NCBI RefSeq assembly: GCF_003987355.1
Contig: NZ_PIPR01000001.1
Location: 1,054,001-1,118,000 of the forward strand
Origin: Pseudidiomarina aestuarii
GTDB lineage: Bacteria; Pseudomonadota; Gammaproteobacteria; Enterobacterales; Alteromonadaceae
Direction of reading: 5' to 3'
Length of the DNA: 64,000 bases
A model generated the notes under the pieces. The model ran no database searches. It worked only from the letters and a program-made list of their open reading frames with translations, and was not told where the DNA came from. Of this stretch, positions 39,328-46,395 are shown in pieces. The position numbers and the translations under genes were made by a program. The first letter of the stretch is position 1; every line of letters starts with the position of its first letter.

Positions 39328-39403
39328 TGGTGGGTCGTGCAGGATTCGAACCTGCGACCAATTGATTAAAAGTCAACTGCTCTACCAACTGAGCTAACGA
39401 CCC
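39328..39403 (-). tRNA. tRNA-Lys (TTT), copy 1
   Basis: A 76-base tRNA with encoded CCA, anticodon TTT, acceptor stem GGGTCGT, indistinguishable by eye from E. coli tRNA-Lys. Identical to the second copy 114 bases upstream in its direction of transcription. Confidence 0.97.
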
Positions 39404-39517: not shown

Positions 39518-39593
39518 TGGTGGGTCGTGCAGGATTCGAACCTGCGACCAATTGATTAAAAGTCAACTGCTCTACCAACTGAGCTAACGACCC
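39518..39593 (-). tRNA. tRNA-Lys (TTT), copy 2
   Basis: Sequence identical to the copy at 39328-39403, including CCA. First of the pair in transcription. Confidence 0.97.
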
Positions 39594-43879: not shown

Positions 43880-44574
43880 GCACTGGTACCTGCTTTTGCT
43901 GGAGCGCTCGTCTGCCGCTGTAAAATAGCGAGCAGCTCATCCATAAAATTCAAATATTGGTTATCGACTTTTTCGACCCGATGAGAGAACCGGTTGTATG
44001 CAATGACCGCCGGAATTGCCGCAAATAGACCCATTGCCGTTGCAATCAAGGCCTCCGCAATACCGGGTGCCACCATAGCTAAAGTCGCCTGTTGCACTGC
44101 GCCTAGACCAATAAAGGCATTCATAATGCCCCAAACCGTACCGAACAAACCCACATAAGGGCTGATAGAACCGATAGTGGCGAGCAAACTTAAATTTGAC
44201 TCGAGCTTGTCGAGTTCACGTGAATGAACCACTCGCATCGCGCGATAGGCAGCATCAAGAATTTGTTGTTGCGGCAAATTCGCATTCGAACGCAGCCGGG
44301 CAAACTCTTTGAAACCAGCATGAAATAATTTTTCCATGCCAGAGGCATTTTGTGCGCGAGCACCAACCTCTTGATACAGCCGTCCTAAATCGACGCCTGA
44401 CCAAAACCGATCCTCAAACGCGAGCGCATTTTGGCTCGCCTGCTGAATCACTTTACGACGCTGGAAAATCATCATCCAGCCACCTACCGAGAACGCTAAC
44501 AACATTAACATCACCAGTTGCACAACCAGACTGGCTTCGAGAATTAACGCGGTAATGGAAAGTTCAGCTTGCAC
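43876..44574 (-). CDS. tolQ: Tol-Pal protein TolQ
   Basis: 232 aa, three membrane helices, ExbB/MotA-type proton channel. Typical segments are LSLLATIGSISPYVGLFGTVWGIMNAF and GIAEALIATAMGLFAAIPAVIAYN. Overlaps ybgC by 11 bases. Confidence 0.96.
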   Translation of the reverse strand: MQAELSITALILEASLVVQLVMLMLLAFSVGGWMMIFQRRKVIQQASQNALAFEDRFWSGVDLGRLYQEVGARAQNASGMEKLFHAGFKEFARLRSNANLPQQQILDAAYRAMRVVHSRELDKLESNLSLLATIGSISPYVGLFGTVWGIMNAFIGLGAVQQATLAMVAPGIAEALIATAMGLFAAIPAVIAYNRFSHRVEKVDNQYLNFMDELLAILQRQTSAPAKAGTSA

Positions 44575-44986
44575 GCTTGAGTCCCTCTAAAATTTCTTGC
44601 GGCATCGGAATCGCTTTGACCCCGCCGTTATGTTTTAAATTCACGCAAGCAGCTTTGATGTCTGCTTGGCATAATACGGTTCCATCGATCGCCAACACTT
44701 GCTGACTGAAAACAACCGAAGCGCGTTTGAGTTGTTCGACCACAACGGTCACGCGCAGTTCATCGTTGAAACGCGCTGGCAGAAATAAATTTAACTGTAC
44801 CGAGCGAACCACAAAGCCAATGCCATTATCTAACCAAGTGTCTTGCTCAATACCTAGTGAGCGTAACCATTCGGTCCGCGCTCGCTCAAGGAATTTGAGA
44901 TAATTGGCATAGTATACGATGCCACCAGCATCTGTATCTTCGTAATAGACGCGAATCGGCCAAATAAATGCAGCTTGTTTATCCAT
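44564..44986 (-). CDS. ybgC: Acyl-CoA thioesterase YbgC
   Basis: 140 aa hot-dog-fold thioesterase acting on short-chain or phospholipid-related acyl-CoA. The signature VYYEDTDAGGIVYYANYLKFLERARTEWLRSLG includes the catalytic Asp. First gene of the tol-pal cluster, as in many gammaproteobacteria. Its leader is AT-rich. Confidence 0.95.
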   Translation of the reverse strand: MDKQAAFIWPIRVYYEDTDAGGIVYYANYLKFLERARTEWLRSLGIEQDTWLDNGIGFVVRSVQLNLFLPARFNDELRVTVVVEQLKRASVVFSQQVLAIDGTVLCQADIKAACVNLKHNGGVKAIPMPQEILEGLKRAS

Positions 44987-45168
44987 AAAATTTTATCTTA
45001 TTGGTTTTTTAGCTAGTAATTTTTTTAAGCCTAAAAATAGACCACAATCAGTAAAGCTATTGTAATTATTGTTTATTTTTGGTCTTACCAATTTCATTTA
45101 GTTTAATTAATAACCAAGTGTTAAAACGTGACATTAGTTTTTCTAATAGATAGCGCAATTTTTCTCGG
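44987..45168. other. AT-rich leader of the tol-pal operon
   Basis: A strongly AT-rich stretch without an open frame. It should contain the promoter for ybgC-tol-pal on the minus strand, but no single -35/-10 pair stands out. Confidence 0.4.
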
Positions 45169-45196
45169 TTGAAGACTGGTCTGTCCTGCCTATAAT
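45169..45196 (+). promoter_or_regulatory. Sigma-70 promoter of a candidate small RNA
   Basis: TTGAAG (45169-45174), 16 bases, TATAAT (45191-45196). A perfect -10 box, facing the plus strand where no protein gene follows. Confidence 0.7.
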
Positions 45197-45202
45197 ACGC
45201 AG

Positions 45203-45309
45203 CATATCAGTTACGAAGAGACCGGTTGTCACTTCTCCTGTTATTGTTCCCTGGATTTAACTTCCTTGTTGTTCTGTATTTTGCCCGCTCCCTGAGCGGG
45301 CTTTTTTTT
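45203..45309 (+). ncRNA. Candidate small RNA with own promoter and terminator
   Basis: The predicted transcript is about 107 bases, beginning 7 bases after the TATAAT box and ending at a strong intrinsic terminator. It has no ATG-initiated open frame. It is pyrimidine-rich and holds CTTCTCCTG and ACTTCCTTG, which could pair with ribosome sites of target mRNAs. A U-rich end and an 8-base stem suit an Hfq-bound RNA. I cannot match it to a known family. It lies opposite to both neighbouring genes. Confidence 0.6.
45283..45309 (+). terminator. Intrinsic terminator of the candidate small RNA
   Basis: GCCCGCTC (45283-45290) and GAGCGGGC (45294-45301), a three-base loop and eight T residues. It points away from ybgC and lies in the plus direction only. 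Confidence 0.92.
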
Positions 45310-45312
45310 GCC

Positions 45313-45387
45313 TGCTAGCTACTAGCTAATGGCTATTCGAAAACACAGATCCACGCTCTTCTAGTAACTAATATCCAATAGCTATTA
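45313..45387. repeat. Heptad-arm inverted element A5 at the end of ruvB
   Basis: The left arm (45313-45338) is GCTAGCT, ACTAGCT, AATGGCT, ATT; the right arm (45361-45387) is CTAGTAA, CTAATAT, CCAATAG, CTATTA. The core has GAAAAC (45339-45344) and ACGCTCTTCTA (45353-45363). The ruvB stop codon (45387-45385) is within the right arm. Confidence 0.88.
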
Positions 45388-46395
45388 ACGCTCTTCGCTT
45401 TTGGTGAGGCCGAAGTGGCGATACGCATGCGGCGTCGCAATCCTGCCCCGCGGTGTTCGTTGCAAAAAACCCTGCTGAATCAAATACGGCTCCAGTACAT
45501 CTTCTATCGTATCTTTTTCCTCACCAATCGCGGCTGCCAGGTTATCTAAGCCCACTGGACCACCCATGAATTTTTCCATAATGGCCAGTAATAACTTGCG
45601 GTCCATATAATCAAAACCAGCTTCATCTACATCCACCATTTTCAGTGCTGCATGTGCAACCGGCTGATCAATGACACCGTTGTTTTTCACTTCCGCAAAG
45701 TCACGGACGCGGCGTAACAAGCGATTCGCAATTCGCGGTGTCCCGCGTGAGCGGCGCGCAATTTCCAGAGCGCCATCTGCACTCAAATTCAAATTCAAGT
45801 AGCGCGCAGACCGCTCGATGATAATGGTCAGTTCCTCAACGCTGTAAAACTCAAGACGTTGCACAATACCAAAACGATCACGCAGTGGTGACGTTAATGC
45901 GCCAGCCCTGGTCGTTGCTCCAATCAAGGTGAACGGCGGCAGATCCAATTTGATTGATCGAGCTGCAGGCCCCTCGCCAATCATGATATCGAGCTGATAG
46001 TCTTCCATTGCTGGGTAGAGAATCTCTTCGACCACCGGACTCAAACGATGAATCTCATCAATAAAAAGTACGTCATGTGACTCCAAGTTCGTCAACAATG
46101 CCGCAAGATCGCCTGCTTTTTCTAGCACCGGCCCCGACGTTTGCCGAATATTTACGTCCAGCTCATTCGCCACAATATTCGCCAACGTCGTTTTTCCGAG
46201 CCCAGGCGGTCCAAAAATCAACACATGGTCGAGCGCTTCCGAACGTTGCCGAGCAGCTTGGATAAAGATCTCCATCTGCTCCACAACATGCTTCTGACCG
46301 GTGTAGTCCCCTAAACGCTTCGGACGAATAGCGCGATCGACAGCCTCATCCTCGGGCTGCTTCTGGGGTTGGTTAATCCGGTCCGGTTCAATCAT
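45385..46395 (-). CDS. ruvB: Holliday junction branch-migration motor RuvB
   Basis: 336 aa AAA+ ATPase. Walker A is in [16 protein letters not shown], Walker B in [10 protein letters not shown], sensor 1 in [19 protein letters not shown] and the arginine finger lies in the [18 protein letters not shown] region. A winged-helix C-terminal domain ends the protein. Last gene of the ruvC-ruvA-ruvB series; repeat B3 separates it from ruvA. Confidence 0.97.

Follow-up and report, generated by a model that had tools for sequence, protein, structure and literature searches.

GcvB (RF00022), the small RNA of enterics, vibrios and Pasteurellaceae that represses mRNAs for amino-acid and peptide transport with the help of Hfq, is the described system that comes closest to the locus reported here. 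For the gcvA-gcvB region, PMC5002191 gives ATTAG-n5-CTAAT as the inverted repeat of GcvA and places the centres of the GcvA sites at -65 and -43 relative to the start of gcvB, the second site being less conserved. In addition, Csr sRNAs Pf1-Pf3 are described from Pseudoalteromonas, Pf1 having about 21 GGA motifs (PMC9927453, PMC11882849), and hundreds of sRNAs were predicted in a Pseudoalteromonas (PMC11882849) as well as 209 in a Shewanella (PMC5471319). In the open-licence PMC literature no description of the RNA considered below was found, nor anything on gcvB in Alteromonadales, on a small RNA of Pseudidiomarina or on an intergenic sRNA between ruvB and tolQ, and the RNA may be contained without a name in the sRNA supplements for Pseudoalteromonas or Shewanella.

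The window, i.e. the whole stretch of 64,000 nt of the Pseudidiomarina aestuarii genome that was analysed, holds between ybgC and ruvB, on its plus strand, a predicted sRNA of about 107 nt. As far as can be judged from sequence, we consider it likely that this is a trans-acting, probably Hfq-dependent sRNA which is activated by GcvA, pairs with ribosome-binding sites (RBS) and takes the place of GcvB in its circuit. The sigma-70 promoter (TTGAAG-16-TATAAT, 45169-45196) and the terminator with an 8-base stem and eight T (45283-45309), which had been pointed out in an earlier note on this DNA, are present exactly as described, and both ybgC and ruvB run, as stated there, on the minus strand and thus opposite to the RNA. 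The features of the locus are the following:

45133..45147, plus strand: putative GcvA-type operator ATTAG-N5-CTAAT (IR1), its centre near -63 relative to the predicted start
45157..45172, plus strand: AATTTTTCTCGGTTGA, where the second and degenerate GcvA site would lie, overlapping the -35 box; conserved in the genus
45169..45174, plus strand: -35 box TTGAAG, a match to the consensus
45191..45196, plus strand: -10 box TATAAT, a match to the consensus and invariant in 25 genus sequences
45203..45309, plus strand: predicted small RNA of about 107 nt, its start placed from the -10 box and its end from the T-run
45215..45235, plus strand: possible 5' hairpin GAAG-A-GACCGGTTGTC-A-CTTC, weakly indicated by an RNAalifold consensus
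45246..45255, plus strand: conserved segment GTTCCCTGGA, nearly invariant in genus and family
45261..45273, plus strand: candidate seed CTTCCTTGTTGTT, complementary to ribosome-binding sites and exact in 25 of 26 genus sequences
45283..45309, plus strand: intrinsic terminator, stem plus T8, the 8-pair stem covarying in the family
44564..44986, minus strand: ybgC, first gene of the ybgC-tolQRAB side and divergent from the RNA (name read from the translation)
45385..46395, minus strand: ruvB, convergent with the RNA (name read from the translation)

The terminator stem (45283-45301) consists of 8 pairs, 7 of them G-C, and a loop of 3, followed by T8, and the predicted RNA folds better than its shuffles (z -2.5). 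In the 5' hairpin of the RNAalifold consensus, three outer pairs are double-changed in one or two of 24 sequences. Counting bare consensus matches in the same 1.5 kb yields three promoter-like sites where 2.5 are expected and two terminator-like sites where 1.7 are expected; promoter and terminator taken alone are therefore at chance level, and it is conservation that makes the unit real.

A sequence search found a copy of the RNA in all 25 other Pseudidiomarina genomes searched (73-92% identity, one copy being truncated by a contig end), and among 33 genomes from outside the genus three had matches, consisting only of short pieces over the terminator. In an alignment of 25 genus sequences, which includes that of the source genome and excludes the copy cut by the contig end (L021), the mean pairwise identity is 0.98 in the core, where 27 of 33 columns are invariant, 1.00 in the -10 box and 0.93 in the -35 element (45156-45174; 15 of 19 columns invariant), followed by 0.84 in the 5' half of the RNA, 0.81 in the terminator and 0.64 in the spacer between -35 and -10. 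The corresponding values are 0.54 and 0.20 for the spacers towards ybgC and ruvB, and 0.59 and 0.74 for the start of ybgC and the end of ruvB, respectively. The core thus lies far above both the spacers and the ends of the flanking genes, which is the opposite of the pattern, flanks conserved and interval not, that the earlier note had named as speaking against a small RNA. In named genomes the exact core pattern was found at 25 loci, 21 of them in Pseudidiomarina, three in Idiomarina and one in a gammaproteobacterial MAG.

Several further elements were seen in the window. Between the -35 and -10 boxes (45175-45190), many Pseudidiomarina sequences read TGGTC-N-G-N-CC or nearly so, a form that is absent from L022 and from the best-scoring other genus. 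Between ybgC and the RNA there is a palindrome TTGGT-N3-ACCAA (45079-45091), which occurs just once in the window and not at all within the contig's first 800 kb; in the stretch 45082-45096, which overlaps it, genus identity is 0.80, as against 0.54 and 0.49 in the spacers on either side. The palindrome resembles operators of the PdhR/FadR type of GntR regulators and may regulate the ybgC-tol side. On the minus strand, two tRNA genes (39331-39403 and 39521-39593) lie 117 bases apart, both score 79.2 bits (Rfam) and are perhaps duplicates.

For searches beyond the genus two covariance models were used: R1, based on 24 genus sequences and on the RNAalifold consensus structure, in which the terminator is mispaired because the alignment shifts, and R2, comprising core and terminator of 30 sequences with the terminator specified by hand. 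At E up to 0.1, with chance matches being possible near that limit, R1 matches 254 of 395 family genomes from 37 of 52 genera. Forty of the stronger matches outside the genus, hand-picked for spread, were read for 2 kb on each side, and TolQ was found next to all 40, RuvB next to 37 and YbgC next to 33. In the order, R2 matches 101 of 394 genomes at E up to 0.01, including 34 of the 35 genomes of the source family f1 in that sample (two of them weakly); 44 genomes, only part of which were read at the locus, reach at least 40 bits, namely 32 from f1, five from f15, six from f20 and one from f6. YbgC is kept at all six f20 loci and RuvB at four, neither gene is found within 2 kb of the five f15 loci and of L157, and at an f6 locus scoring 37.7 bits (L160) TolQ and YbgC adjoin. 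Judged from these sequences, the presence of relatives is supported for f1, f15 and f20 and probable for f6, and in most of the carrying families the RNA lies at the ruvB-tol junction. Five matches of 34-37 bits (L158, L159, L161, L162, L163), the five that were read among those of 29-37 bits, were discarded, as the core is absent and they have the look of plain terminators. The source genome itself has a second, weaker R2 match of 39.9 bits (L164, G000:C1:1770326-1770382, minus strand), in which CTCTCCCTGGATTG precedes a terminator; it may represent a further sRNA or have arisen by chance.

Covariation of the terminator was assessed in 30 family sequences, using an alignment that had been built without the terminator structure. 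Compensatory double changes occur in five of the eight stem pairs, a number reached by 2 of 500 shuffles, while the fraction of stem cells paired (97.5%) and the covariation score (0.333) were reached by none of the 500; the count of further pair types in the terminator was no higher than in shuffles (339 of 500). By prediction, the unit therefore has the general traits of a trans-acting sRNA, i.e. a promoter of its own, an intrinsic terminator, conservation and no coding capacity. The earlier claim of a small RNA is in this way strongly supported by conservation in genus and family, by synteny and by terminator covariation, and the locus very probably encodes a small regulatory RNA shared by relatives across the family.

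With respect to its control, an exact copy of ATTAG-N5-CTAAT occurs only once in the 2.64-Mb source genome, upstream of the predicted RNA, as against three copies per strand of the reversed control motif. At gcvB of E. coli K-12 (L237) the centre of the box was measured at -65, with one mismatch, and the spacing from ATTAG to GTTG is 36 nt there and 35 nt at the RNA locus. In the 230 nt before the core, with up to two mismatches allowed and 7 of the 20 order loci (L158, L159, L161-L165) left out as non-homologous, the box is present at 78 of the 79 loci counted and has no or one mismatch at 61 of them; it was found at all 26 genus loci (13 with none, 11 with one and 2 with two mismatches), at 39 of 40 family loci (13, 14 and 12, respectively) and at all 13 order loci (3, 7 and 3), L101 being the locus without a box. 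Shuffles of the same composition equal boxes with no or one mismatch in 0-6% and boxes with two mismatches in 7-46% of cases. The spacing from the box to a AATTTTTCT(C/T)GNTTGA-like element is near constant except in L077, L080 and L103, and the element AATTTTTCTYGNTTGA has one perfect copy in the source genome, at the RNA locus, and one more with a single mismatch.

The same motif was looked for at gcvB and gcvA genes of relatives. Elsewhere in the order seven GcvB loci were read (L166-L172), and all except L166 carry the box with no more than two mismatches. Thirteen gcvA loci were read, nine outside Pseudidiomarina and four within it. Six of the nine have an exact box directly before gcvA (five from the same family and one from f6), the remaining three having a one-mismatch box, a two-mismatch box and no box; for the same family outside Pseudidiomarina this amounts to five of six genomes, and it follows that the motif marks gcvA in the family independently of the RNA. 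At the four Pseudidiomarina loci no box was found before gcvA, which in the source genome lies 9 bases after another gene on the same strand. The word orphan, which the earlier note had applied to the RNA, was accordingly not borne out, given a promoter with the GcvA operator architecture of gcvB and relatives in f1, f15, f20 and probably f6.

It might be argued that the RNA, although a genuine base-pairing sRNA and conserved, is activated by another LysR-type protein or has no link to amino-acid control, given that ATTAG-N5-CTAAT has the general T-N11-A shape of LysR-type sites, that the second GcvA half-site of the RNA promoter is degenerate, that the box is missing before gcvA at the four Pseudidiomarina loci read and that no class of targets was established. 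We regard this as unlikely, since the box equals the GcvA motif given in PMC5002191 and is found both before gcvA in the same family and at most of the GcvB loci of the order.

Activation by GcvA would agree with the gene content of the source genome, where one strong match to E. coli GcvA (62% identity, E 4e-124) represents the ortholog and an hfq gene is present. The gcvA gene (G000:C1:723531-724430) is on the same contig as the RNA (at about position 1099203). Matches to GcvA at E 1e-40 or better, not every one of them necessarily an ortholog, were obtained in 52 of 59 genomes. With the Rfam model, no GcvB over the cut-off was found in the source genome, and in the order GcvB exceeds the cut-off in 103 of 394 genomes, none of which belongs to the 44 that have R2 at 40 bits or more (0/44 versus 103/350 of the others; Fisher's exact test, p 8e-7, kinship being ignored). 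As this mutual exclusion follows family lines, it represents few independent events. Sub-threshold GcvB matches occur in three of the 44 genomes (G048, 38.2 bits; G106, 30.9 bits; G147, 28.6 bits; cut-off 42 bits). The first of them (L173, G048:C3:266092-266235) comes from an f15 genome in which the new RNA occurs as well; some 119 kb separate this match from gcvA, and the best box upstream of it shows three mismatches. Upstream of gcvA in the same genome (L261), a two-mismatch box and a promoter-like sequence pointing away from gcvA were seen by eye; both point into a short spacer followed by a small reading frame, and the arrangement may be what is left of a gcvB that was lost.

Conservation, synteny, the operator motif, the presence of gcvA and hfq and the lack of GcvB over its cut-off were shown by the sequences and support the preferred reading, i.e. 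a GcvA-activated, RBS-pairing sRNA in the place of GcvB. In the mechanism proposed, the LysR-type regulator GcvA would bind the operator and activate transcription from the promoter, presumably in response to glycine. Hfq might then bind the U-rich linker and the U8 tail, and the pyrimidine-rich core (GTTCCCTGGA and CTTCCTTGTTGTT) would pair with ribosome-binding sites and block translation of the targets; by analogy with GcvB, the physiological role might be amino-acid control. In Alteromonadaceae and some related families the RNA would thereby occupy the same position in the GcvA circuit as GcvB does in enterics, vibrios and Pasteurellaceae. Only tentatively we would go further and suggest that GcvA has swapped its partner in Alteromonadaceae and several neighbouring families, GcvB having been lost and an unrelated, shorter RNA now controlling, under GcvA, how amino acids are taken up and used.

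The RNA might also be truly homologous to GcvB but strongly diverged, having moved away from gcvA and lost the R1 part, with a 3' R2-like segment and the terminator retained. Such a descent is favoured by the promoter architecture common to both RNAs, by their mutually exclusive distribution and by alignments of the full-length model R2 to the 3' portion of several GcvB genes, the best one (L169) reaching 26 bits (E 4e-4 over 30 kb) with UUCCUGUAUUUAU opposite UUCCCUGGAUUUAU. However, these 26 bits are below the 29-37 bits of whole-genome matches of the terminator type, of which the five read had no core, E. coli gcvB scores only 13 bits against R2, the GcvB model has no match in 45100-45400 even at E up to 10, and the order of segments and the neighbouring genes differ, all of which makes a common origin with GcvB rather improbable.

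The mode of action of the preferred GcvA-controlled RNA is suggested by its pairing segments, two of which the earlier note had described as complementary to ribosome-binding sites. CTTCCTT (45261-45267) holds up as part of the segment CTTCCTTGTTGTT, whereas CTTCTCC (45232-45238) shares bases with the 3' arm of the 5' hairpin and occurs in only one of 26 genus sequences, that of the window itself, 15 others having CTTCTTCC and 10 yet other sequences. A scan for duplexes restricted to the RBS was based on 581 ortholog pairs (of 609 reciprocal ones, 28 without a usable start having been dropped) from the first 800 kb of one contig in two species. CTTCCTTGTTGTT forms duplexes of -12 kcal/mol or below in both species for 46 genes, whereas 20 shuffles average 18.6 and do not exceed 32; at -9 to -11 kcal/mol one or two of the 20 shuffles equal its count. 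Because it contains an anti-SD string, this signal indicates complementarity to ribosome-binding sites and supports the mode of action, but not particular targets; moreover, its predicted probability of being unpaired is only moderate (mean 0.56). GTTCCCTGGA was not outstanding in the same scan (7 genes versus 4.0, a count reached by four of 20 shuffles).

No class of targets was established by this restricted scan, by an unrestricted duplex scan or by 15-mer seed matches. The unrestricted scan of the 581 pairs was not discriminating, with 344 versus 290 at -18 kcal/mol and two of ten controls reaching 335 and 339. Complements of the 15-mer seed with up to two mismatches were, the RNA locus itself apart, not more frequent in the 26 genomes than those of the reversed control. 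Seed complements followed by ATG were found in all 26 genus genomes and above the reversed control, an excess also expected from ordinary ribosome-binding sites. Starts were readable in only 30 of the seed-complement loci, and for one of these loci, L200, putatively hisIE by reading, similar strings were seen in three other genomes.

That the locus is a non-regulatory element, be it a promoter paired by chance with a terminator, a short open reading frame or a signal that ends ruvB or tol transcripts, is very improbable indeed: the consensus elements alone are at chance level and a frame of 30 codons from TTG, the longest on the plus strand over the RNA, spans 45226-45318, but the core is 98% identical next to a spacer of 20%, the frame stops only past the T-run, one additional base shifts it in those genus sequences that have CTTCTTCC (15 of 26), core lengths vary by 1-2 nt between genera (e.g. 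GGATTTAACTTCC, GGATTTATTTCC, GGATTACTTCC), and a terminator for ruvB is rejected because no T-run follows the stem on the minus strand. The RNA is therefore read as non-coding.

If the preferred reading of a GcvA-activated sRNA is true, marine bacteria would have a family-wide sRNA absent from Rfam 15, providing a clear case for asking how regulatory RNAs get replaced while the protein switch remains; on the more tentative reading of a swapped partner, one regulatory RNA would have been displaced by another under a conserved switch. Since a candidate activator can be named and glycine is predicted as the inducer, the function would be directly testable.

In comparison with known RNAs, the earlier statement that no known family matches agrees with the Rfam check, as no curated cut-off of Rfam 15 is reached over the RNA of the window, and in 12 homologous loci no family exceeds its cut-off at E up to 0.5. 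The best sub-threshold scores are those of anti-hemB (RF02837) and the Betaproteobacteria toxic sRNA (RF02278), which likewise have a pyrimidine-rich segment of the UCCCUG type followed by a strong terminator; they match mainly the terminator and UUCCCUG. Unlike true members, the window scores 24.3 bits for anti-hemB (cut-off 49.5) and 25.2 bits for RF02278 (cut-off 50), and the homologous loci also stay below the cut-offs, with anti-hemB scoring in 8 of 12 up to 38.7 bits (E 1e-5) and RF02278 at 26.2 bits in L099. These and other sub-threshold families (BTS, anti-hemB, RprA, suhB and others) were set aside, their scores being carried largely by the terminator. The Csr sRNAs Pf1-Pf3 are likewise small RNAs from a related marine genus, and a CsrB/C-type RNA was rejected because the predicted 107 nt contain one GGA, as opposed to about 21 in Pf1. 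By membership the RNA is not GcvB, since it has no match to the covariance model and no gcvA neighbour, a GcvB gene being adjacent to gcvA and divergent from it; it was filed as an RNA new to Rfam 15, an sRNA that differs from GcvB but has a promoter of the GcvA type. In contrast to GcvB, which lies beside gcvA, it resides between ybgC-tol and ruvB, has about half the length and no clear copy of the GcvB R1 sequence, and carries its conserved segments, including TTGTTGTT and CTTCC, in a different order. It shares with GcvB, in turn, a GcvA-type promoter with a box near -65 and a second-site position near -43, a near-equal spacing from the box to the -35 element, an intrinsic terminator, a CUUCC and a U/G-rich segment, and a genome that has both gcvA and hfq.
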